Part shown: positions 3,148 to 51,915 of the stretch, in pieces | How the letters are laid out: each line of letters begins with the position of its first letter | Position numbering within the stretch: position 1 is the first letter of the stretch | Assembly: GCA_011389745.1 (NCBI GenBank) | Contig: JAABTQ010000003.1 | Span: forward strand, 75,520-139,519 | DNA: 64,000 nt | Source of the DNA: Desulfobacteraceae bacterium | GTDB lineage: Bacteria > Desulfobacterota > Desulfobacteria > Desulfobacterales > SKZT01 | Direction: 5' to 3' | The notes under the pieces: generated by a model | What the model was told of the DNA's origin: nothing | What the model saw: only the letters and a program-made list of their open reading frames with translations | The model's database searches: none | Position numbers and translations under genes: made by a program

Positions 3148-3669
3148 ATGGAAATAAACCTACTGGAAAAAATTGAAATTATCCAGGGTGATATAACCAA
3201 AATTAAGGCAGATGCCATAGTGAATGCCGCCAACAACTCTCTTTTAGGGGGCGGTGGCGTGGATGGGGCAATACACCGGGCAGCAGGCCCGGAGCTTCTT
3301 GCAGAATGCAAAACCTTAGGAGGGTGCCCCACGGGAGAAGCCAGAATTACAAAAGGATACAACCTTCCTGCAAAATATGTCATCCACACTGTTGGCCCGG
3401 TTTATGGTTCACCCAAAGATTCTTCTTTGCTGTCCCAGTGCTACCAAAACAGTTTTACAATAGCTATTGAAAAAAACATCAAGACAATCGCCTTTCCAGC
3501 CATCAGTTGCGGTATTTATGGATATCCCATCGAGGATGCCTGCAAAATCGCCCTGGAGACTACTTGCAGATTCTTAAAAGAAAATAATGTCTTGGAAAAA
3601 GTGATATTTGTTTTGTTTTCAAAAAATGACGAGAAAATATATCGCCAGTGCCTGAATAAAATCGCATAA
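3148..3669 (+). CDS. Macro-domain protein (O-acetyl-ADP-ribose deacetylase-like)
   Basis: IIQGDITKIKADAIVNAANNSLLGGGGVDGAIHRAAG...TIAFPAISCGIYGYP. Confidence 0.95.
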   Translation: MEINLLEKIEIIQGDITKIKADAIVNAANNSLLGGGGVDGAIHRAAGPELLAECKTLGGCPTGEARITKGYNLPAKYVIHTVGPVYGSPKDSSLLSQCYQNSFTIAIEKNIKTIAFPAISCGIYGYPIEDACKIALETTCRFLKENNVLEKVIFVLFSKNDEKIYRQCLNKIA

Positions 3670-3759
3670 CCAGTGCCTGAACAAAAAGTCCTTTTCTCCC
3701 TCCCGCGACCCATTCCGGTAACGAGAAGAGTTTTTCGTTCAAACACTGATTGAATGGGG

Positions 3760-4620
3760 TTACACCCTGCCTCCGCTCCACCTGAGTTTAGCCTTTAGTA
3801 CATCGAAATATTCCTGACCCGGCATGATGATCATATTGGTCGGATGCTTTCCTTTTCGAACGATAATGGTGTCATTTTCGTTAATTTCCAACCCAGCCTG
3901 ACCGTCAAATGTAAGCATGATATCTTCGGATTTTTCCTCCAGTCTTATGGTGATGCAGGCTGCATCAGGTATAATCAGAGGTCTGTTGGTAAGCGTAAAT
4001 GGCGAGATCGGCGTCATGATGATAGCGGGTACTCCAGGATGGAGAATAGGCCCGCCGGCGGCAAGGGAGTATGCCGTAGATCCTGTCGGAGTCGCCACAA
4101 TGAGACCGTCGGCCTTGTAGGTGGTCAAGTACTGGCCGTCAATGTAAGTTCGGATATGAGCCAATCTGGCCAAAGCACCTTTATTGATGACGACATCGTT
4201 TAAAACGGTTTCTTGAACAAAAACCTCGCCCCTTCGATTCAATTCCACTTGAAGCCTCATCCGGGGGGTGGTTTCAAATTGTTTATTGATAATTTTTTCA
4301 GCTACGGAAAACAATTTGTCTTCGGCAATTTCAGCCAAAAAACCGACTTCACCAAACTTGACGCCAAGGATAGGAATCGGCTGGTCACCGATCCATCGCA
4401 CCGCACTTAAAAAAGTACCATCACCGCCCAAAACAAAAATACACAGCAGATCATTGGGTGCGACTGAAAGTTTTTCCCCGGCAACCTTCAATCCGGAGGG
4501 TAGCCCCTCTTTTCGGAGAACATCGAATCCTTTTGATTTCAACCAGATTTCTAATTCATCGGCTTTCTTTTCAGCTTTATCTTCATTTTTTACAAACAGC
4601 CCGATTCGTTTCACTGTCAC
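3760..4620 (-). CDS. nadK: NAD kinase
   Basis: [35 protein letters not shown]...[26 protein letters not shown]. Confidence 0.96.
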
Positions 4621-4730
4621 TGTACTCTCCTTGTCTCTCGAATTACACGTCCGCTTTTATAACCGATAATTATAAACGTGTCGAACAAAAAAATAACGTG
4701 AAACATCTTAACCATTGTAAGGCAATATTA

Positions 4731-5453
4731 TCAGATTCCTAAATAAGCTTTTCTGACCTCCTCATTTTTCATCAGGTTCCGGGCCGTGTCCGAAAGCGAG
4801 ATAATTCCGTTTTCCATCACATAACCGCGATGCGCTACTTTTAACGCCATATTGGCATTTTGTTCCACCAGAAAAATCGTTGTGTTATTTTCCTGATTAA
4901 TCTGTGTGATGATATTAAAGATACGTTTGACCACCAACGGCGCCAGACCTAATGAGGGTTCGTCAAGAAGCAGCAACCGGGGTCTGGCCATAAGAGCCCG
5001 TGAGATGGCCAGCATTTGTTGCTCACCTCCACTGAGAGTTCCGCCGGCCTGGCGTCTCCGTTCAGATAAAATGGGAAAAAGCGAATAAACATATTCTTTG
5101 TCGGCCTTTATTCCTGCACTGTCGGTACGCAGAAATGCCCCCATATCGATATTTTCAGAAACGGTCAGGTAAGGAAATATCCGCCTCCCTTCAGGGACCT
5201 GGCTTACTCCCATGGCCACAATCTTATTGGGATTTAAGCCGCTGATTAATTTTTCTTCAAAGTAGATTTCGCCCGAACGGGGTGGAGTAATCCCGGAAAT
5301 GGACATCAGTGTAGTGGATTTGCCGGCCCCGTTGGCGCCGATTAAGGTAACGATTTCCCCGGAAAGAACTTCCAGGCTCACACCTTTAAGAGCTTGTATA
5401 TTGCCGAAGTAAGTGCGTATGTTAATGAGTTTAAGCATCCATGTCTTCCCCAA
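4731..5453 (-). CDS. livF: Branched-chain amino acid ABC transporter ATP-binding protein
   Basis: Walker A GANGAGKST, LSGGEQQMLAI, LLLDEPSLGLAP; LivF-like length and operon position. Confidence 0.95.
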   Translation of the reverse strand: MGKTWMLKLINIRTYFGNIQALKGVSLEVLSGEIVTLIGANGAGKSTTLMSISGITPPRSGEIYFEEKLISGLNPNKIVAMGVSQVPEGRRIFPYLTVSENIDMGAFLRTDSAGIKADKEYVYSLFPILSERRRQAGGTLSGGEQQMLAISRALMARPRLLLLDEPSLGLAPLVVKRIFNIITQINQENNTTIFLVEQNANMALKVAHRGYVMENGIISLSDTARNLMKNEEVRKAYLGI

Positions 5454-6228
5454 GGTATGCTTTGATTACAGCGGAGTTTCGTTTGATTTCTTTGGATGTA
5501 CCTTCTGCAATCTTTTTACCGTAATCCACCACATAAATTCGATCTGACAAACTCATCACCAACTTCATGTCATGTTCTATGAGAAGAATCGAAATATCCT
5601 CTTCCTTGCGAATTCTGATAATGAGGTCATCCAACTCCCTTGTTTCCTGGGCATTCATTCCGGCAGCAGGTTCATCCAGTAAGAGAACCAGAGGTTCAGT
5701 GGCAAGAGCTCTGGCAATTTCCAGACGTCGCTGAGCCCCGTAAGGAAGATTTTTGGCAAATTCGTTTACAAATTTTTCCAATCCGATTTTTTTCAGAATT
5801 CGGTAGGAATCATTGACGACCTGTTTTTCCTCGAGCACTGTGGCTTTGTTTCTCAAAATAGAGCCTGGAATTCCGCTTTTCATGCGGCAATGCCTCCCGA
5901 TCATCACATTTTCCAGTACCGTCATGTTTTGAAACAACCGGATATTTTGAAATGTACGGGCCAGTCCGACTTCGGTAATCTTGTTTGGTTTTAGACCGTT
6001 TAAGCGAACAAATTTTTGATTGGGAGGATTAAGAAACATTTCTCCTCCTGTGGGCTGATAAAGGCCGGTAATGCAATTAAAAAAAGTGGTTTTTCCGGCG
6101 CCGTTGGGACCAATCAGGGCAACAATTTCATTGGGATAAACTTCCAAATCAATGCTATCTAAGGCCCTGAGACCTCCAAAATCCATGGTAAGCGCATTGA
6201 CTTGCAAGACAGGTTTCATCTTTTTCAC
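5431..6228 (-). CDS. livG: Branched-chain amino acid ABC transporter ATP-binding protein
   Basis: GPNGAGKTTFFNCITGLYQPTGG...LARTFQNIRLF...LLLDEPAAGMNAQET; overlaps livF start. Confidence 0.95.
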   Translation of the reverse strand: MKKMKPVLQVNALTMDFGGLRALDSIDLEVYPNEIVALIGPNGAGKTTFFNCITGLYQPTGGEMFLNPPNQKFVRLNGLKPNKITEVGLARTFQNIRLFQNMTVLENVMIGRHCRMKSGIPGSILRNKATVLEEKQVVNDSYRILKKIGLEKFVNEFAKNLPYGAQRRLEIARALATEPLVLLLDEPAAGMNAQETRELDDLIIRIRKEEDISILLIEHDMKLVMSLSDRIYVVDYGKKIAEGTSKEIKRNSAVIKAYLGEDMDA

Positions 6229-6231
6229 TTA

Positions 6232-7449
6232 TTATTGTCGATTTTCTTCAATTGCTTTGAACCGGTAGTTTCTCCGCACATTGGCTACAATGCCCTCAGG
6301 TCGAAAAACCATCATTGAGACCAGAACAACCCCGAAAATCATCATCCGATACTCGGAAAAAGCCCGAAGATATTCCGGCAACAAAATTAAAATAAAAGCA
6401 CCGCAGATGACACCAATTATTGACCCCATACCACCCAAAACCACGATACATAAAATGATAATGGATTCCCAGATGGTAAATGAGGCCGGATTGATGAAAG
6501 TGGTCTTGGCGGCAAACATGACCCCGCCCATACCTGCCCAAGTCGCCCCTAAAGCAAAAGCGCTCAGTTTGGTTTTAGTTTTATCCACACCCATGGCCTG
6601 GCAAGCAATTTCGTCTTCACGCAACGCCATCCAAGCCCTGCCGATTCGTGAATCCTGCAATCTGCGGACAACGAAAATAGTCACCAATGATAACCCAACC
6701 ATCAGGTAGTAAAGGTAAATGTGTGTTTGATGTAATGATAATTCAATCCCGAAAAAGCCTGGACGAGATATATTGGCAATACCACTGGGCCCAAATGAAA
6801 AAGCATTCCAGTTTTCCAGCACCAATCGAATAATTTCTCCAAAACCCAGTGTGACAATCGCCAGATAATCACCACGCAGGCGCAATACAGGAAAACCAAG
6901 AATTATTCCGAATATGAATCCCAGTAAACCTCCGATGGGCAGTGCTAACCAAAAACCAATCCCGAAATGATGGTTTAATAAAGCATAAGAGTAAGCCCCA
7001 ACAGCATAAAAAGCTACATATCCCAGATCAAGAAGTCCTGCCAGCCCCACAACAATATTAAGGCCCAACCCAACAACCACATAAATGAGTGCTGTAATCA
7101 TGATGTTGGTCTGGTATAAGGAGAATAGCCAGGGAAAAGTTGCAAAGAAAATAGCGATAATCACAATCGCTGGTTTGTAAATGCGGGCATCTTTTATGAT
7201 TTTTTGAGTGATCGGGGTTTGATTTTCTTCCTCGTTGTCGGCTTTTTTTTTCCCAAGCTCTTTACGCTTGATCATAAATCGCCAAACCAGAGAAAGAACA
7301 AAGCTGCCGATTCCCACCATCAACATTCTCTCCCAACGCCATTCTATGGTTTTGTAAATGGTATTGACACGGATAACCATGATTGGAAATGTAAGAAACA
7401 TAAACCATAAAGAGGTCAGGAACGCTTTTTTTATTTCGCCGATGTTCAA
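6232..7449 (-). CDS. livM: Branched-chain amino acid ABC transporter permease
   Basis: GLAGLLDLGYVAFYAVGAYSYALL...LGFGEIIRLVLENW; LivM signature. Confidence 0.94.
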   Translation of the reverse strand: MNIGEIKKAFLTSLWFMFLTFPIMVIRVNTIYKTIEWRWERMLMVGIGSFVLSLVWRFMIKRKELGKKKADNEEENQTPITQKIIKDARIYKPAIVIIAIFFATFPWLFSLYQTNIMITALIYVVVGLGLNIVVGLAGLLDLGYVAFYAVGAYSYALLNHHFGIGFWLALPIGGLLGFIFGIILGFPVLRLRGDYLAIVTLGFGEIIRLVLENWNAFSFGPSGIANISRPGFFGIELSLHQTHIYLYYLMVGLSLVTIFVVRRLQDSRIGRAWMALREDEIACQAMGVDKTKTKLSAFALGATWAGMGGVMFAAKTTFINPASFTIWESIIILCIVVLGGMGSIIGVICGAFILILLPEYLRAFSEYRMMIFGVVLVSMMVFRPEGIVANVRRNYRFKAIEENRQ

Positions 7450-7460
7450 CGTCTTATCCG

Positions 7461-8390
7461 TTATACTTTATCGGTTTCTTTTCGGCCTAGTATACCCGAA
7501 GGCCTGAAAATCAAAATCAACACCAGAAACAAGAAGGCAAAAACATCTTCGTAATCACTGGAAATATAACCGGTAAAAAAACTTTCCGTCCATCCCAGCA
7601 CCAAACTGCCTAAAACAGCTCCGGGCATACTTCCAATACCGCCCAAAACAGCCGCCACAAAAGCCTTGATCCCGGCGATAAAGCCTATATAAAAATTGAT
7701 CTGGCCTATATGGGAAGCAACGAGCACCCCGCCAATAGCTGCAGTTGCCGATCCCACCACGAAGGTAAAAGAAATCACTTTGCTGACATCGACCCCGACA
7801 AGCATGGCCATATGTCTGTCCTGGGCGGTAGCACGCATGGCCTTGCCAATCTTTGTAAATTTTATAAGAAAGGTGAGCAAAATCATCACGATTGTGGTCG
7901 TCACATAGATTACAATTTCCGAGGAGCGGACAATGTGCTCAACCGGCTCAAGAAAAGCAAAATCGGGTATAAGGTTCGGGAAAGGAAGAAAATCAGAGGT
8001 TTGAGCCAAAAGAACATAGTTTTGAAGAAAAAGCGACATTCCAATGGCGCTGATAAGGGCGGACAGCCTTGGGGCATTTCTTAACGGCTGGTAGGCAATT
8101 TTTTCCATTGTGTACCCATAAGCCGAAGAATAAACAACCGCCGCAAGGGTAGCAATAACCATTATCGCAGGTGCAGGCCATCCCGCCAGAGTTAACACCC
8201 CTGCAACAATTAAGGCTGTGAAGGCCCCGATCATATAAATTTCACCATGGGCAAAATTGATCAGCTGTATGATCCCGTAAACCATGGTATAACCCAATGC
8301 GATCAGGGCGTATATGCTTCCCCGCGTCAGCCCTCCAAGAAACAATTCAAAAAAATAGCCGTAATCCATCTGAGTATGCCATTTTCGCAA
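7461..8390 (-). CDS. livH: Branched-chain amino acid ABC transporter permease (start may be internal Met, MDYGYFFELF, at 8369)
   Basis: GLTRGSIYALIALGYTMVYGIIQLINFAHGEIYMIGAF; LivH signature. Confidence 0.95.
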   Translation of the reverse strand: MRKWHTQMDYGYFFELFLGGLTRGSIYALIALGYTMVYGIIQLINFAHGEIYMIGAFTALIVAGVLTLAGWPAPAIMVIATLAAVVYSSAYGYTMEKIAYQPLRNAPRLSALISAIGMSLFLQNYVLLAQTSDFLPFPNLIPDFAFLEPVEHIVRSSEIVIYVTTTIVMILLTFLIKFTKIGKAMRATAQDRHMAMLVGVDVSKVISFTFVVGSATAAIGGVLVASHIGQINFYIGFIAGIKAFVAAVLGGIGSMPGAVLGSLVLGWTESFFTGYISSDYEDVFAFLFLVLILIFRPSGILGRKETDKV

Positions 8391-8429
8391 TTTAGCTCAG
8401 CAGCGGACTGAGGCCGCCTGCTAAGATAA

Positions 8430-9572
8430 CTATTTCATTTCGATTTCCGCATATTGTCCATTTTGAACCTGGTATACTGAAAAACCGACTCCGATGGCAT
8501 CACCTTTTTCATCAAAACTGATTTTTCCCAGAGGTGTTTCAGCATATTCGGTGGTTAATGCTTTGGTAATGGCCTCATATTCAGTGGAACCCGCCTTTTC
8601 TATTGCATTCAGTAAAGCAATCGTGGCGGCATATGCATTTTCAAAAAATGCTCCGGCATCTGATCCGTAAGTATCCATATGTGCCTGGCGTGAAGCAATG
8701 GTCATGGGATTTTGAGTCACATCCTTAGGCCCGGTGGCATAAACCCCTTCCGCATATTCACCGGCGACTTTTATGAACGTATCATCCTTAACCCCATCAT
8801 CTGAAATAAAAATGGTATCCATTTTCCTCTTGCGCATTTGGGTGACAAGCTTGGATGCTTCAGGATGGTAACCACCGAATATGACAGCCTCGGCTTCCGA
8901 GCGCTTAATTTTTTGCACGACAGCAGAATAATCGACAGCTCCGGGAGTTATACCTTCGTACAAAACAACTTCGGCACGGGGATCCTCTTCAAGAAAACCT
9001 TTGGCAAATTCAGCCAGACCTTTTCCATAATCGCCCTTGTCATGGAGAACCGCTATTTTCTTGAGTTTTAACACATCCAGAGCAAAATCAACTTCAAGCC
9101 GTGCCTGAGCATCATCAGAAGCTATGGTGCGATAAAAATTGGGATACAATCCGCTCTGGGTCAGTTCCGGGTTTGTAGCCGAAGGAGAAATGGCAACAAG
9201 CTTTGTGTCTTTATATATTCCCAGAGCAGCTTTGGTAGCTCCGCTGCAAATATGGCCGATAACGGCATGAACACCGCTGCCGACTAGTTTGGTCGCAGTA
9301 TTTGTAGCCACTTCAGGTTTACAGACATCGTCTTCTATAACCAATTCCACCTGTTTTCCTAAGACACCTCCCTTGGCATTAATTTCTTTCACCACCAACT
9401 CCGCCGCACGAACGGTTGGAATGCCGTAAGATGCAAGGTCACCGCTGTGAGCACCCGCCACACCAATCTTTATGGTATCCTGGGCATCAACTTTCCCGTT
9501 TGCCGTAAAAACCATAAAAATTGCCATAGCGGCAGCAATCGCACTTATTTTCCATCGATTTTTCATAGCCAT
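8430..9572 (-). CDS. livK: Branched-chain amino acid ABC transporter substrate-binding protein
   Basis: N-terminal signal sequence, DTIKIGVAGAHSGDLASYGIPTVRAAELVVKEINAKGGVLGK...VIGHICSGATKAA. Confidence 0.95.
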   Translation of the reverse strand: MAMKNRWKISAIAAAMAIFMVFTANGKVDAQDTIKIGVAGAHSGDLASYGIPTVRAAELVVKEINAKGGVLGKQVELVIEDDVCKPEVATNTATKLVGSGVHAVIGHICSGATKAALGIYKDTKLVAISPSATNPELTQSGLYPNFYRTIASDDAQARLEVDFALDVLKLKKIAVLHDKGDYGKGLAEFAKGFLEEDPRAEVVLYEGITPGAVDYSAVVQKIKRSEAEAVIFGGYHPEASKLVTQMRKRKMDTIFISDDGVKDDTFIKVAGEYAEGVYATGPKDVTQNPMTIASRQAHMDTYGSDAGAFFENAYAATIALLNAIEKAGSTEYEAITKALTTEYAETPLGKISFDEKGDAIGVGFSVYQVQNGQYAEIEMK

Positions 9573-46658: not shown

Positions 46659-47825
46659 TTAATCAGCGAACTTTTGCCGGCACGCAGGAATTGCGCAGGC
46701 AAGTAAAATTGTTCTTTCAAGCAGGCTTTTCTTGATCATGTATTCGTTTTCGCTGTGGTCATCCGCACCGATTGGTCCAAGACCGTCAATAACCGGTGTG
46801 TTTTCATCGGCGATCAGGTTGGCATCCGATACGCCGAAACGAAACTCTTCCTTGATGTCCATGTTCAACTGCGTGGCCACTGTTTTTACCGTATCAAAAA
46901 GCTGCCGGTTTTTTGCACTCTGAGGCATGGGGGGTCTTCCGCTGATAATATCGACCTGGGTACCAACGCCTGGAACATAAATGGTTTTGGCGATTTCGTC
47001 TATTTTTTTCTCTAAATGCTGCCTGTCCGAAAAATCTTCATACCGGATATCGATTCCGGCTTCAGCATGATCCGCAACCGTATTGGGACCAATGCCGCCG
47101 CTGATTTTACCCGCATTAACCGTGATTTTTCGCGAGGGATCATTGAGGCTTTCGAACTGAATAATTTTATGGGCAAGCTCTAAAATGGCGCTGACCTTGT
47201 TTTGTCCTGCTGTGGCCGCATGTCCGGCTCTGCCGAATGTTTCCATCCTGGCAGACATGTTGCCTTTCCGTCCGGTGACAATTTCTCCCTGCAGCCCGCC
47301 ACACTCCAGTACAAAGGCAAAAAGGCTTTTTCGGGCCTCCCGACGAATAATCGGCGCCGAGGTTCGTGACCCGATTTCTTCATCCGAGTTGAAAACAAAA
47401 GTCACCGGAATCTTTCTGAGCAAACCTAAAAAATCCAGGGCTTTCAGAGCATAAATTCCCGCTGTCAGCCCACCTTTCATATCGATCACCCCGGGTCCGT
47501 AACACTTTTGATTATCTTCTCTGTATTGGTTAAAGGGGGAATATTCGGGAAATACCGTGTCCGTATGTCCCACAAGGAGAATCTGGTTGGCAAAACTACC
47601 TGTTGCGGGAGAACGAACCACCAGATGATTTCCAAAAGTTTCCTGGGCAATCTCGGTGCAGGTCAGGGAAGAATTTTCAAATTCAGAAGCAATCAGCGCC
47701 ATCATTTGATCATTTCCGGACTTGTGGTAACTGTGGCTCTGGGTTTCCACCATCCGTTTCAACAAATCGAACATGCCTGGTTCACAGCAAGTCAGATAAT
47801 TTCGAATTTCCTGATATAAGGTCAT
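46659..47825 (-). CDS. M20-family metallopeptidase (ArgE/DapE/CPG2-like)
   Basis: LLVGHTDTVFPEYSP..., YGPGVIDMKGGLTAGIYAL, NSDEEIGSRTS; 4-bp overlap with upstream gene. Confidence 0.93.
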   Translation of the reverse strand: MTLYQEIRNYLTCCEPGMFDLLKRMVETQSHSYHKSGNDQMMALIASEFENSSLTCTEIAQETFGNHLVVRSPATGSFANQILLVGHTDTVFPEYSPFNQYREDNQKCYGPGVIDMKGGLTAGIYALKALDFLGLLRKIPVTFVFNSDEEIGSRTSAPIIRREARKSLFAFVLECGGLQGEIVTGRKGNMSARMETFGRAGHAATAGQNKVSAILELAHKIIQFESLNDPSRKITVNAGKISGGIGPNTVADHAEAGIDIRYEDFSDRQHLEKKIDEIAKTIYVPGVGTQVDIISGRPPMPQSAKNRQLFDTVKTVATQLNMDIKEEFRFGVSDANLIADENTPVIDGLGPIGADDHSENEYMIKKSLLERTILLACAIPACRQKFAD

Positions 47826-49402
47826 GGGGTATATTTTAAAAATGAAAAATCGGTGCCGGCGTATTCTTCACTGTCCGCGTCAGGATAATCGACCTCCTGA
47901 TGGTTCCATGGCTTTCGCAAAATCACGGTATCTCCAACATGTTCAACCACGTTACTTCGGTGAAGGGGGATTTTTCCACCTGCCGTAGCGATGTATCTTG
48001 GGATTGCATCGCCTGAAATATTGCCGTACATGCTTTCGATGATATCCCGTCCCTTCTCGATGGGCACCCGCAGGTGGGAAAACTGAGGATTGCGGTAGCT
48101 GCAATTAAATACATAATAAGGGCGGACATAACTTTCCTGGATTGTTTCACAAAGTTTCCACATTTTAACAGATGTATCGTTAATTCCTCTTAACAAAACA
48201 GCCTGGTTCAGCACCGCACTGACACGCTTTGATATTTGTTTGAAAGCCTCCCGTGAGATTGGAGTGATCTCCTGGGCTGTGTTGATCTGGGTTACCACCC
48301 GCACAGGGCTTTTGTCATTGCTTTCTTCCAAAATATCCAGCAATTCGTTGTCTATGCGCTGAGGCGCGGTCACCGGAATTCGGGTGCCAAGTCGTTTCAT
48401 TTTTACATGCTCGATTTCATCCAGGGCAGTCAGGATTTTTCTCACTATTTTATTGGGAAGCACAAACGCATCCCCACCGGTGATCAATACATCCCGGATT
48501 AACGGGTTGTTGCGAATATAATCGAGAGCTTCCCCGTATGCCTGGTCGGAATAAATTCTGTCTTTTTTACCGATGTGTGCCAGCCTAAGGCAATGGGTAC
48601 AATACATGGCACACATGTTGGTCGCTTTGATGGTCACCACACGGGGATAAAACTGGTCAATCAGTCTTGCCGGAGAATGGTCTGCTGCAACCGGGGGAAT
48701 TTCAATGCCCACATTGTCTACCATCTCACCGGTGGGAACCGATTGAATCAGGACCGGATCATTGATTTTGCCGGGCTGGATTAAAGCGGCATAATAAGGG
48801 GTCAGCCTCATACGGTATTTTTGCGTGACCCTTTGGATATCATCGAGAACATGGGCCGGCAGATCCAGGATTTTCCCGAGTTTGTCCACCGAATCGATAC
48901 AATTTCTGATCTGGCCGCTGTAGCTGTTCCAGTCGCTATCACTGATATTCAGGACACTTTGGATGCGCCGGATATTTTCCCGGATGTGATCCCATAGTTC
49001 AATGCCGCTGGGTGCTTCCACCGGGTGTCTTTTTAAATAGCTGTCCACCCTTGAAATGGCCTCATGGACAATCGGAAGAGCCCTTGTCAGCCTTCCCCCA
49101 ACAGAAACGCCGTGTTCATCCAAACGGCTGTGCATTTGCGCCAGTTCAATCAGCGTTTTTTTAGATACACCGATGGCATCGGGACTTTGGCCTGATTCGC
49201 TTTTTATATCTTTGAGACGGGAAAACAGGGAGATGATCGGTTCGGTTCGTTGTTTTTGCCGACATTGTTCAACGATTAATCTGATTTCTTCCAGGACTCC
49301 ATCCGGCACCGGGAAACTTTTTTTTTGATCTCTGAACAAATTATCAAATAAGTCTTTTGTAAATTCATCCATCGCGGTTTCATCATTCTGAGCATTATTC
49401 AT
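47822..49402 (-). CDS. KamA-family radical SAM aminomutase with long N-terminal extension
   Basis: CAMYCTHC (CxxxCxxC), VLITGGDAFVLPNK, RPYYVFNCSYRNPQFSHLRVPIEKG, PRYIATAGGKIPL (PLP-lysine region); start at internal ATG 49402 (MNNAQNDETAMDEF). Confidence 0.92.
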   Translation of the reverse strand: MNNAQNDETAMDEFTKDLFDNLFRDQKKSFPVPDGVLEEIRLIVEQCRQKQRTEPIISLFSRLKDIKSESGQSPDAIGVSKKTLIELAQMHSRLDEHGVSVGGRLTRALPIVHEAISRVDSYLKRHPVEAPSGIELWDHIRENIRRIQSVLNISDSDWNSYSGQIRNCIDSVDKLGKILDLPAHVLDDIQRVTQKYRMRLTPYYAALIQPGKINDPVLIQSVPTGEMVDNVGIEIPPVAADHSPARLIDQFYPRVVTIKATNMCAMYCTHCLRLAHIGKKDRIYSDQAYGEALDYIRNNPLIRDVLITGGDAFVLPNKIVRKILTALDEIEHVKMKRLGTRIPVTAPQRIDNELLDILEESNDKSPVRVVTQINTAQEITPISREAFKQISKRVSAVLNQAVLLRGINDTSVKMWKLCETIQESYVRPYYVFNCSYRNPQFSHLRVPIEKGRDIIESMYGNISGDAIPRYIATAGGKIPLHRSNVVEHVGDTVILRKPWNHQEVDYPDADSEEYAGTDFSFLKYTP

Positions 49403-49417
49403 TGATAATCTCCGGGT
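49387..49417. repeat. 31-bp direct repeat, copy A
   Basis: TCTGAGCATTATTCATTGATAATCTCCGGGT, identical to 49983-50013. Confidence 0.97.
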
Positions 49418-49434
49418 ATCATTCAGGGCCCTCG

Positions 49435-49664
49435 CTAATTCGACCAATTTTCAAGTTTCAGTTCAGGAATTCGATTAAATTCCTTGTAGTTGTTTGTAAC
49501 AAGGATGGTATTCCAAAAGAAACCCCATACCACAATTCAGCGGATACCACAGCAAATATGGCTACTTCCCCGACCGGTATAGATGAGAGTTTCTTACGAA
49601 TTGATTCAGGATGGTACTTTATAAGGTAAATGCAAGTGTTGGTGTCCAGCATAAAGCGGATCAT
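49435..49664 (-). pseudogene. vapC: vapC PIN-domain toxin with internal frameshifting deletion
   Basis: N-part MIRFMLDTNTCIYLIKYHPESIRKKLSSIPVGEVAIFAVVSAELWYGVS; C-part in another frame TILVTNNYKEFNRIPELKLENWSN*; middle of the PIN domain missing. Confidence 0.85.
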
Positions 49665-49888
49665 ATACCGTTTCTTTCTTCCGGTTGAAAATCTTCAGTA
49701 CTGTCTGGAAAATCGAGAGTAAATCGCCTGCTTTGTTTAAAATAGCTTTCCCAACTTTGTCGTTTAGGTCGAAGGATAATTTCATCACCTCGTCTAAAAA
49801 TCTCGACTTCTTTTGTGTCTAAAATGAACTCCTTGGGCAACTTGACTGCTTGAGAGTTCCCGGAACGAAAAATTTTTGCCATTGCCAT
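49661..49888 (-). CDS. vapB: VapB-type (AbrB/SpoVT-fold) antitoxin
   Basis: MAMAKIFRSGNSQAVKLPKEFILDTKEVEIFRRGDEIILRPK. Confidence 0.93.
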   Translation of the reverse strand: MAMAKIFRSGNSQAVKLPKEFILDTKEVEIFRRGDEIILRPKRQSWESYFKQSRRFTLDFPDSTEDFQPEERNGI

Positions 49889-49947
49889 TCTATTTACCTC
49901 CCAACATGATAACATTTATCAATAAATAAGCTTACAAGAGGATTATG

Positions 49948-49998
49948 TCAAATGCCGGATTTATCCATTGCCGTTTCCTTAGTCTGAGCATTATTCAT
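49948..49998 (-). pseudogene. Ghost duplicate of the kamA 5' end (MNNAQTKETAMDKSGI*)
   Basis: Aligns with kamA N-terminus MNNAQNDETAMDEFTKD; directly abuts repeat copy B. Confidence 0.8.
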
Positions 49999-50013
49999 TG
50001 ATAATCTCCGGGT
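49983..50013. repeat. 31-bp direct repeat, copy B
   Basis: Identical to 49387-49417; overlaps the ATP-grasp stop codon region. Confidence 0.97.
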
Positions 50014-51394
50014 TTGTTTCATCACAAAAAGACATTTGAAGTTTTTCAAGTCCCTGGGTTAAGCCTTCGTTTACAGCATGGAAATCAAGACCAACTGAAA
50101 CGATACGACCGATAAAAGTTCCCTGAGCAACGACAAAGTCGCTTCCGATATGCTCCATTATCAAATAGTCCCTATCTTGAAGGCCGTTTGCCACTTTTTT
50201 GAAAGTTTCTCTTTCATATGAGCTTTGCGAAACATAACCATTGGTATGAACCATTTTTTGCATTTTATAGTTATAGGTCCCCCAATGGATGTTTTTAGGA
50301 TTGGATGATAACTCCACGGTATTTTCAGGAAAAGAGTTGCGGGTAACCGCCCAGTATTCAAGTTCCGGCAACATAGGAGAGCCTTTGGGCAGGGACTGCT
50401 CCAATGTGCAGCAAAATTCCATGGTGGTTCCCTGTTTTCGGGCATTGATCTCCAGAAAGTGAATATCTTTTTGTGAATTGACAATATAATCGCAACCGAA
50501 AATTCCCCTGTAACCGTTGACTGCCAACCATTTGCCGGCTTTTCGGGTCAATTCCCCAAGAGTTGAGATAATATCAGGGGGCAGTTTCGAAGGAAAGGTT
50601 GAACCTGTAAACCGGTTGCCCTGCTCGATTCTCTGGTCGGCTACCCCGGCTATGTAAACATCCTTTTCATTGGCTACCACGCCCAGCACCGTAGGATCAT
50701 CCTCATGGGGCATATAACGGCTGATCAGATATTGAATGTTTTCCAATTTGAATTTAGCGCATAAGTCATCCGGACTGTGAGCCACAATACTTTTTGCGCC
50801 TGCCGCACTGTAATCTTCCGTTACAAAAATTCCATCGGGCCACTTTTCCCAAAGTTCTTCAGTGGTTTCAACCAGATGGGTACGCGTATCACAAACACGG
50901 TACTCGGGCATGGGAAGCAATCCGGACAACTGAGTGTATTGGGCAATTTTGCTGTTCATTCTGTGAGCAACATCGCTTCGCGGGCCAAGAATGGAGACGC
51001 CTGGAATTTTGTCGAGGGCCATCTCAGGAAAACTTTCATACATATAAATATACACATGATCCTGTCGACTTCGCAGTTCTCGGACAAGCTCTCTTACATA
51101 TGAATTGCAGGAAACGGATTCCATGAATTCGCGACCGGCTAAGCGACAGCAGATGTTGCAACCGTGCCTGCGAAAAAAATTTTCCGCAAAAGGATTGACG
51201 ACCATAAGATTCCGGTAGTCATAATTTTCAAACACATCCGGAACAATTGCTATAAAATCGAATTTCTGTTGATAAATACCAGAAAGACTTTCGGCCAGAA
51301 AATTGTTCAGTCCATAGTTTTTGATTTCTCCGATGTATAGGAAATATTGTGTGCCACTTTGAAGACGATATTTGGAATAGAAAATTTCAGACAT
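49991..51394 (-). CDS. ATP-grasp domain ligase-like protein
   Basis: FVTEDYSAAGAKSIVAHSP...YLISRYMPHEDDPTVLGVVANEKDVYIAGVADQRI...GYRGIFGCDYIVNSQKDIHFLEINARKQGTT, typical ATP-grasp Lys/Glu/Asn positions. Confidence 0.85.
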   Translation of the reverse strand: MSEIFYSKYRLQSGTQYFLYIGEIKNYGLNNFLAESLSGIYQQKFDFIAIVPDVFENYDYRNLMVVNPFAENFFRRHGCNICCRLAGREFMESVSCNSYVRELVRELRSRQDHVYIYMYESFPEMALDKIPGVSILGPRSDVAHRMNSKIAQYTQLSGLLPMPEYRVCDTRTHLVETTEELWEKWPDGIFVTEDYSAAGAKSIVAHSPDDLCAKFKLENIQYLISRYMPHEDDPTVLGVVANEKDVYIAGVADQRIEQGNRFTGSTFPSKLPPDIISTLGELTRKAGKWLAVNGYRGIFGCDYIVNSQKDIHFLEINARKQGTTMEFCCTLEQSLPKGSPMLPELEYWAVTRNSFPENTVELSSNPKNIHWGTYNYKMQKMVHTNGYVSQSSYERETFKKVANGLQDRDYLIMEHIGSDFVVAQGTFIGRIVSVGLDFHAVNEGLTQGLEKLQMSFCDETNPEIINE

Positions 51395-51699: not shown

Positions 51700-51915
51700 C
51701 AGCCTTATGCGCTTAAGGCGCAAGACATATCAGCCCAGGGCAACGCCCTGGGTTTGATACACCCTATGATTTTAGCCCTGTAAGGGCGTGACATAAAAGG
51801 TTTTTTAGTGCAAAATTCTGATTTAATGTTACGCCCTTACAGGGCTGATTTAAAAAATACAAACTACCCAGGGCGTTGCCCTGGGCTGATATGTAAAGGC
51901 CTTTCAGGCCTGACC
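51700..51915. repeat. Large composite inverted repeat
   Basis: Left arm GACATATCAGCCCAGGGCAACGCCCTGGGTTTGATA..TTTTAGCCCTGTAAGGGCGTGACATAA; right arm GTTACGCCCTTACAGGGCTGATTT..ACTACCCAGGGCGTTGCCCTGGGCTGATATGT. Confidence 0.9.

Follow-up and report, generated by a model that had tools for sequence, protein, structure and literature searches.

What might an ATP-grasp ligase, a KamA-family radical SAM aminomutase and an M20 metallohydrolase do together when their genes stand side by side? The question is raised by a 64,000-nt stretch of DNA from a Desulfobacteraceae bacterium (GCA_011389745.1, contig JAABTQ010000003.1, positions 75,520–139,519), here called the window, in which an earlier note had proposed an undescribed three-gene pathway. 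As that note had described, three genes follow one another on the minus strand, and all their reading frames are intact: that of the carboxylate-amine ligase P0001 (49991–51394, 467 residues), which heads the trio; kamA, encoding the radical SAM and pyridoxal phosphate (PLP) aminomutase P0002 (47822–49402, 526 residues from an ATG start); and that of P0003, a carboxypeptidase G2 (CPG2)-like M20 enzyme (46659–47825, 388 residues). The 4-bp overlap noted between kamA and the M20 gene is the ATGA at 47825–47822. We find that the trio is a conserved and apparently undescribed unit, shared by many sulfate reducers that live mostly in salt water, and we put at roughly one half the probability that it constitutes a module for a (gamma-)glutamyl or beta-glutamate conjugate, with provision for synthesis, hydrolysis and uptake.

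The conservation of the trio was assessed in a scan of GTDB genomes, in which 108 relatives of P0002 were confirmed and 80 loci read. Adjacency was counted in the 68 loci with enough flank and the complete trio in the 57 with both flanks. A ligase gene lies directly upstream of kamA in 56 of the 68 loci, an M20 gene directly downstream in 51, and the complete trio is present in 34/57. Most of the loci are from the Desulfobacterota, with a few records titled Spirochaetes, SAR324, Brocadiaceae or Deferribacteres, for which bin contamination is possible where a single metagenome-assembled genome (MAG) is concerned. Orthologs of P0002 occur in the cultured species Desulfosediminicola flagellatus and Desulfopila aestuarii (L036 and L039). 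Recurrence of the gene order in dozens of divergent genomes is far beyond chance, and the trio is not confined to close relatives, the outcome that the earlier note had named as telling against its proposal. A search of the open-access literature found nothing relevant on this gene combination. The KamA subfamily, its partner set and the mutual exclusion of two partners described below appear to be new, the kinds of enzyme themselves being known.

In the order to which the window's genome belongs, 20 of 341 genomes and 13 of 142 genera have the gene. The kamA of a congener, G299, is only 64% identical to that of the window and has a nearer relative in another family of the order. This divergence, together with the patchy occurrence, suggests horizontal transfer. 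The G299 trio (L127, 1146–3847), which is of a different lineage, looks degraded, as its kamA is interrupted by a TAG and its ligase open reading frame (ORF) is short. An apparent in-frame TAG in the kamA of G301 was dismissed, as the gene is one uninterrupted ORF of 516 residues (L137/L031) and the TAG is probably its own stop read through.

The partners of kamA were compared in the 44 loci longer than 12 kb (wide loci). The ligase is present in 36 of these, none of which has a gamma-glutamyltransferase (GGT)-family protein, and seven of the eight loci lacking the ligase carry one (Fisher ~2e-7, kinship among loci ignored); the two partners exclude each other. Full-length GGT proteins have the TTH nucleophile motif and neither a hydrophobic N-terminus like that of most TAXI proteins nor an obvious signal peptide; the two that were scored reached 311 and 348, below the equivalog cut-off of 358, with a good Pfam family match. 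Transport genes are also associated with the aminomutase. The absence of an adjacent transporter, as the earlier note had it, is true of this window, but a TAXI binding protein with a fused TRAP permease stands beside about half of the ligase-type relatives (20/36 wide loci, compared to 0/7 of the GGT type), in many cases accompanied by a universal stress protein gene. Most GGT-type loci have a Dpp/Gsi-like peptide ABC importer. Genes for FadR-type GntR regulators are found in 12 of the 44 wide loci. Four shorter loci (L019, L025, L074 and L078) have TRAP genes and no detected ligase, but since kamA sits at a contig edge in them they are no evidence against the ligase-or-GGT rule. In two Spirochaetes records the GGT-type locus has an MttB-family methyltransferase gene nearby (L020, 11043–12545; L029, 13141–14586).

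P0002 scores above the cut-off of the KamA family (TIGR00238, 230.3 bits; cut-off 199.2) and far below that of every equivalog, and is not a characterised enzyme, in keeping with its earlier description as divergent. The highest-scoring of these models is glutamate 2,3-aminomutase (EAM; TIGR04368, 330.4 bits; cut-off 650), followed by lysine 2,3-aminomutase (LAM)/AblA (TIGR03820, 283 bits; cut-off 525.4) and arginine aminomutase (240 bits), which makes EAM the nearest characterised branch by profile score. When P0002 was aligned to the LAM structure 2A5H, the catalytic residues that it shares with EAM were found to be invariant in 42 sequences: the CxxxCxxC cluster (C264/C268/C271), the PLP lysine K477 (LAM K337) and R273 (LAM R134). 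The substrate-pocket residues are a different matter. LAM D293 and D330 are replaced by Ser435 and Thr473, which are invariant in the 42 aligned sequences, as is Arg437 two residues past Ser435; LAM R112, R116 and R136 are likewise replaced. EAM has Lys/Asn at the positions where LAM has Asp/Asp (PMC3965090), and the sole protein in our survey above the EAM cut-off (L083) carries that Lys/Asn pair. A bona fide EAM was ruled out for the window by the shortfall in score and the missing Lys/Asn signature. The lysine (ablAB) reading was ruled out by the Ser/Thr residues, the 283-bit score and the lack of ablB.

The tree unites the window-type aminomutases in a single clade, supported at 100/100 and set on a long stem. 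LAM (2a5h) was the only strong Foldseek match of the AlphaFold model, which is poor at residues 231–270, beside the active site (predicted local distance difference test score, pLDDT, <50). P0002 differs from LAM also in its ~140 extra N-terminal residues; this helical region (residues 1–145, window 48968–49402) has no significant Pfam match and contains the invariant residues E96, H97, G102–R104 and R118. A deep variant of the subfamily, ~49% identical and retaining the Ser and Arg, is encoded at L121 (G255:C614, 1859–3460) on a short contig with neither ligase nor M20 gene and with a carbon-nitrogen hydrolase gene nearby. Three soda-lake records of Desulfonatronovibrio or Desulfonatronospira have a second, short KamA homolog divergently upstream of the trio (L041, 4983–6101; L042, 186–1304; L057, 121–1413). 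The short homologs score above the KamA family cut-off, and the one that was aligned, from L041, has Arg at LAM position 293.

The ligase P0001 matches PF02655 (32.7 bits, cut-off 23.2), and D302, E315, N317, R319 and K320, corresponding to the Mg/ATP residues of ATP-grasp enzymes (Asp, Glu-x-Asn-x-Arg), are invariant in 42 homologs. Its best equivalogs, BesA and LdmS, are both weak. BesA (L-propargylglycine--L-glutamate ligase), named for the joining of an amino acid and glutamate, is the best-matching characterised ligase, with a profile match to its structure 8yi6 at E=3.9e-8, but the similarity is confined to the ATP-grasp core, and P0001 scores 24.5 bits where the equivalog cut-off is 750. 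The predicted structure of P0001 (pLDDT 91.7) has its best fold matches among ATP-grasp enzymes (PurK/PurT/biotin carboxylase), which establishes the fold and not the substrate. Two ligase relatives (L119, 8055–9392; L120, 7970–9397) have no neighboring KamA and have lost a conserved SYSAAG-like motif.

The third protein, P0003, is a complete M20 enzyme (PF01546, 89 bits; M20_dimer PF07687, 72 bits). Its nearest solved relative is CPG2, with which the profile alignment is full-length (E=2.4e-57) and every aligned metal-ligand position is invariant; the dinuclear ligands H87, D115, E149, E150, E174 and H357 were conserved in all 29 homologs examined. The two enzymes are nevertheless distant, as judged by a single-sequence E-value of 2.9e-28 and a score of 215 against the NCBIfam glutamate-carboxypeptidase cut-off of 349.

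The two distant Desulfobacterota genomes G054 (L117) and G127 (L118) have equivalent trios in which relatives of P0001 (~40% identical) and of P0003 (39% in G054) surround a KamA of another subfamily. The latter scores 632 bits (G054) or 608 bits (G127) against the EAM model, approaching the cut-off of 650, and at LAM position 293 it carries the lysine of EAM, as part of a Lys/Thr pair. In the ligase tree the G054 and G127 ligases nest among the window-type ligases, and in G127 ligase and KamA are a single ORF of 922 residues. A TAXI-TRAP pair lies ~4.4 kb from the L117 trio, its TAXI protein being 68–73% identical to some that are linked to window-type trios. That the same ligase and hydrolase families occur beside two KamA subfamilies, one of them nearly EAM, is the strongest reason for assigning the pathway to glutamate chemistry.

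Several independent hints thus point to glutamate. We favor it over generic or lysine chemistry because the aminomutase is closest to EAM, the ligase to BesA and the M20 enzyme to CPG2, the alternative partner is GGT-like, and the two remote trios carry a near-EAM KamA. The earlier proposal, in which a beta-amino acid is made, conjugated and cleaved, is partly supported: the trio and its three enzyme families hold, and these matches point to glutamate in place of its generic chemistry. We infer the substrate, order of steps, product and physiology of the module as follows. KamA, using SAM, a 4Fe-4S cluster and PLP, would shift the amino group from C2 to C3 on glutamate, or on the glutamyl part of a conjugate, to give a beta-glutamyl unit. 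The ATP-grasp enzyme would join the (beta-)glutamyl unit in an amide bond to an amine or amino acid, and the CPG2-like hydrolase would cut that amide for turnover. In many relatives the TAXI-TRAP importer may re-import the compound or a glutamyl precursor. In a second configuration the GGT-family enzyme would take the ligase's place, usually together with the peptide ABC importer.

A number of observations weigh against this glutamate module. The EAM Lys/Asn pair is missing from the window KamA, and the idea that Arg437 substitutes for the EAM lysine as a carboxylate binder is a guess from its position. The BesA similarity of the ligase spans ~90 residues at a low score, and the ligase-KamA fusion was seen in one MAG only. 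The M20 gene is non-adjacent in 17/68 loci, including most of those from Desulfofustis, and the substrate ranges of the M20 and TAXI families are broad. The locus counts given above (sets of 68, 57 and 44) include related genomes, so that the loci are phylogenetically non-independent. So patchy a distribution would not be expected of a core osmolyte system, and FadR-type GntR regulators with TRAP or peptide importers suit a catabolic pathway too.

The order of the steps could also be reversed, with the ATP-grasp enzyme or GGT transfer making a gamma-glutamyl amide, KamA isomerizing the capped glutamyl group and the M20 enzyme then freeing the product, in which case the neutral Ser435/Thr473 pocket would fit a capped gamma-carboxyl. 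The replacement of EAM K293/N330 by Ser/Thr throughout the subfamily, the resemblance to a ligase named for joining propargylglycine to glutamate, the position of the ligase as first gene of the operon and the mutual exclusion of ligase and GGT, which could be alternative routes to one glutamyl amide, would all suit such an order. We nonetheless think it rather unlikely, as the G054/G127 enzymes retain, alongside the same ligase and M20 families, the lysine with which EAM holds the free gamma-carboxylate, and Arg437 could hold a carboxylate in the window-type KamA.

It is similarly doubtful that the module is catabolic, scavenging imported (beta-)glutamyl peptides or amides that are cut by the M20 enzyme or GGT, with KamA interconverting beta- and alpha-glutamate toward central metabolism. 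Aminomutases are reversible, the distribution is patchy and probably the result of horizontal spread, and besides the adjacent importers and GntR regulators there is, in L020, a substrate-binding protein whose best match, at 110 bits and well under the cut-off, is GsiB, which binds glutathione. However, a scavenging role leaves unexplained a conserved, ATP-consuming ligase that overlaps kamA and is once fused to an aminomutase, and some loci have the ligase and kamA without an adjacent M20 gene. Least probable, in our estimation, is a substrate other than glutamate, such as a neutral or aromatic amino acid whose beta form is built into a peptide natural product or modified metabolite. The pocket has neither the Asp/Asp pair for lysine nor the Lys/Asn pair for glutamate, the three LAM arginines are replaced too, and natural-product pathways include ATP-grasp peptide ligases; yet the closest functional models and all the partner families indicate glutamate, and the trio is widely conserved with no recognized tailoring or export genes.

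If the glutamate module is taken as the working reading, a role as compatible solute would be the most natural physiology for its product. The pointers to this role are all indirect: the TRAP and universal stress protein neighbors, the 11 of 80 record titles naming halophile or soda-lake taxa (Desulfonatrono-, Desulfohalobiaceae), and the accumulation of beta-glutamate elsewhere. Marine methanogens use beta-glutamate as an osmolyte (PMC1224877), in Nitrosopumilus it ranks first among the identified metabolites at 730 mM (PMC8269262), and ectoine is the cargo of one TRAP importer, TeaABC (PMC5812351). A search of the window's own genome for ectoine synthase was uninformative, as the control genomes themselves gave no match, and Rfam identified no riboswitch or osmotic RNA in the window and, across 18 loci, only an unrelated group II intron. 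We tentatively suggest, as a possibility short of probable, that anaerobes of the sea and of soda lakes share an undescribed osmolyte system that moves horizontally, in which a new aminomutase subfamily and dedicated ligase would make a beta-glutamyl amide or dipeptide, the M20 enzyme recycle it and TAXI-TRAP recover it, with a GGT-like enzyme lacking a signal peptide replacing the ligase in the second form. Were the glutamate reading true, a gene set for beta-glutamate-type metabolites could be assigned to sulfate reducers and other anaerobic bacteria from saline habitats; for methanogens, a 2005 review (PMC1224877) still had the route to beta-glutamate as incompletely known. The analysis also brings to light a KamA subfamily whose substrate pocket is distinct, together with a concrete ligase-or-GGT rule that makes function testable.

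Among known systems, the ablA/ablB pathway to N-epsilon-acetyl-beta-lysine resembles the trio in that a KamA-type aminomutase feeds a capped beta-amino acid. It differs in having the Asp/Asp lysine pair, and an acetyltransferase where the trio has the ATP-grasp and M20 enzymes; AblB (TIGR03827) had no match in the window's own genome, whereas five control genomes were positive. The N-acetylglutaminylglutamine amide (NAGGN) cluster, in which a glutamine/glutamate dipeptide is likewise served by both ligase and peptidase, follows a general logic like that of the trio. To our knowledge it has no counterpart of the aminomutase, and its peptidase is of a different family. NAGGN was ruled out as a candidate, its synthetase/GNAT model and gene families being absent among the NCBIfam hits of P0001 (E up to 0.1). 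In a cluster at L128 (G000:C51:1-11030, 3541–9532), the genome's other KamA gene precedes a pair of D-Ala-D-Ala-ligase-like ATP-grasp genes and one for an HDAC/GNAT fusion protein, and similar Ddl-like neighbors stand beside 15 further KamA loci in other Desulfobacterota genomes. This is a second, separate KamA and ATP-grasp system. Like the trio it has KamA adjoining an ATP-grasp ligase, but the KamA is of the lysine type (Asp/Asp), the ligase of another family (PF07478), and no M20 gene was identified.

In the window the ligase and kamA genes are separated by an insertion, all of whose features are on the minus strand. Two copies of a 63-nt direct repeat (86% identical, with an unbroken identical core of ~30 nt) flank an antitoxin gene and a shortened VapC gene. 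Copy A (49363–49425) contains a ribosome-binding-site-like GGAG and the intact kamA start, and copy B (49959–50021) the end of the ligase gene and a relic kamA start (49998–49948), whose translation is MNNAQTKETAMDKSGI followed by a stop. The first 8 bp of the relic, ATGAATAA (49998–49991), contain the ligase stop, in agreement with the earlier deduction of an 8-bp overlap before the insertion. As relatives without the insertion often have ligase/kamA overlaps of 4 or 8 bp, it is well supported that the insertion split a formerly overlapping junction. The insert had been described as vapBC. The MazE/VapB-like antitoxin gene (49661–49915; PF04014, 36.7 bits) is indeed intact, but VapC (49458–49664) is a truncated remnant of 68 residues whose PIN score of 21.1 bits is below the gathering score of 23.6. 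Just upstream of the ligase gene (51725–51894) is an element of ~170 bp, bounded by perfect inverted ends of 29 nt and containing nested palindromes. Full or partial matches to it number 45 across the genome, of which two are 97% identical along its whole length, and on the strength of these matches we regard it as a mobile or REP/MITE-like repeat.

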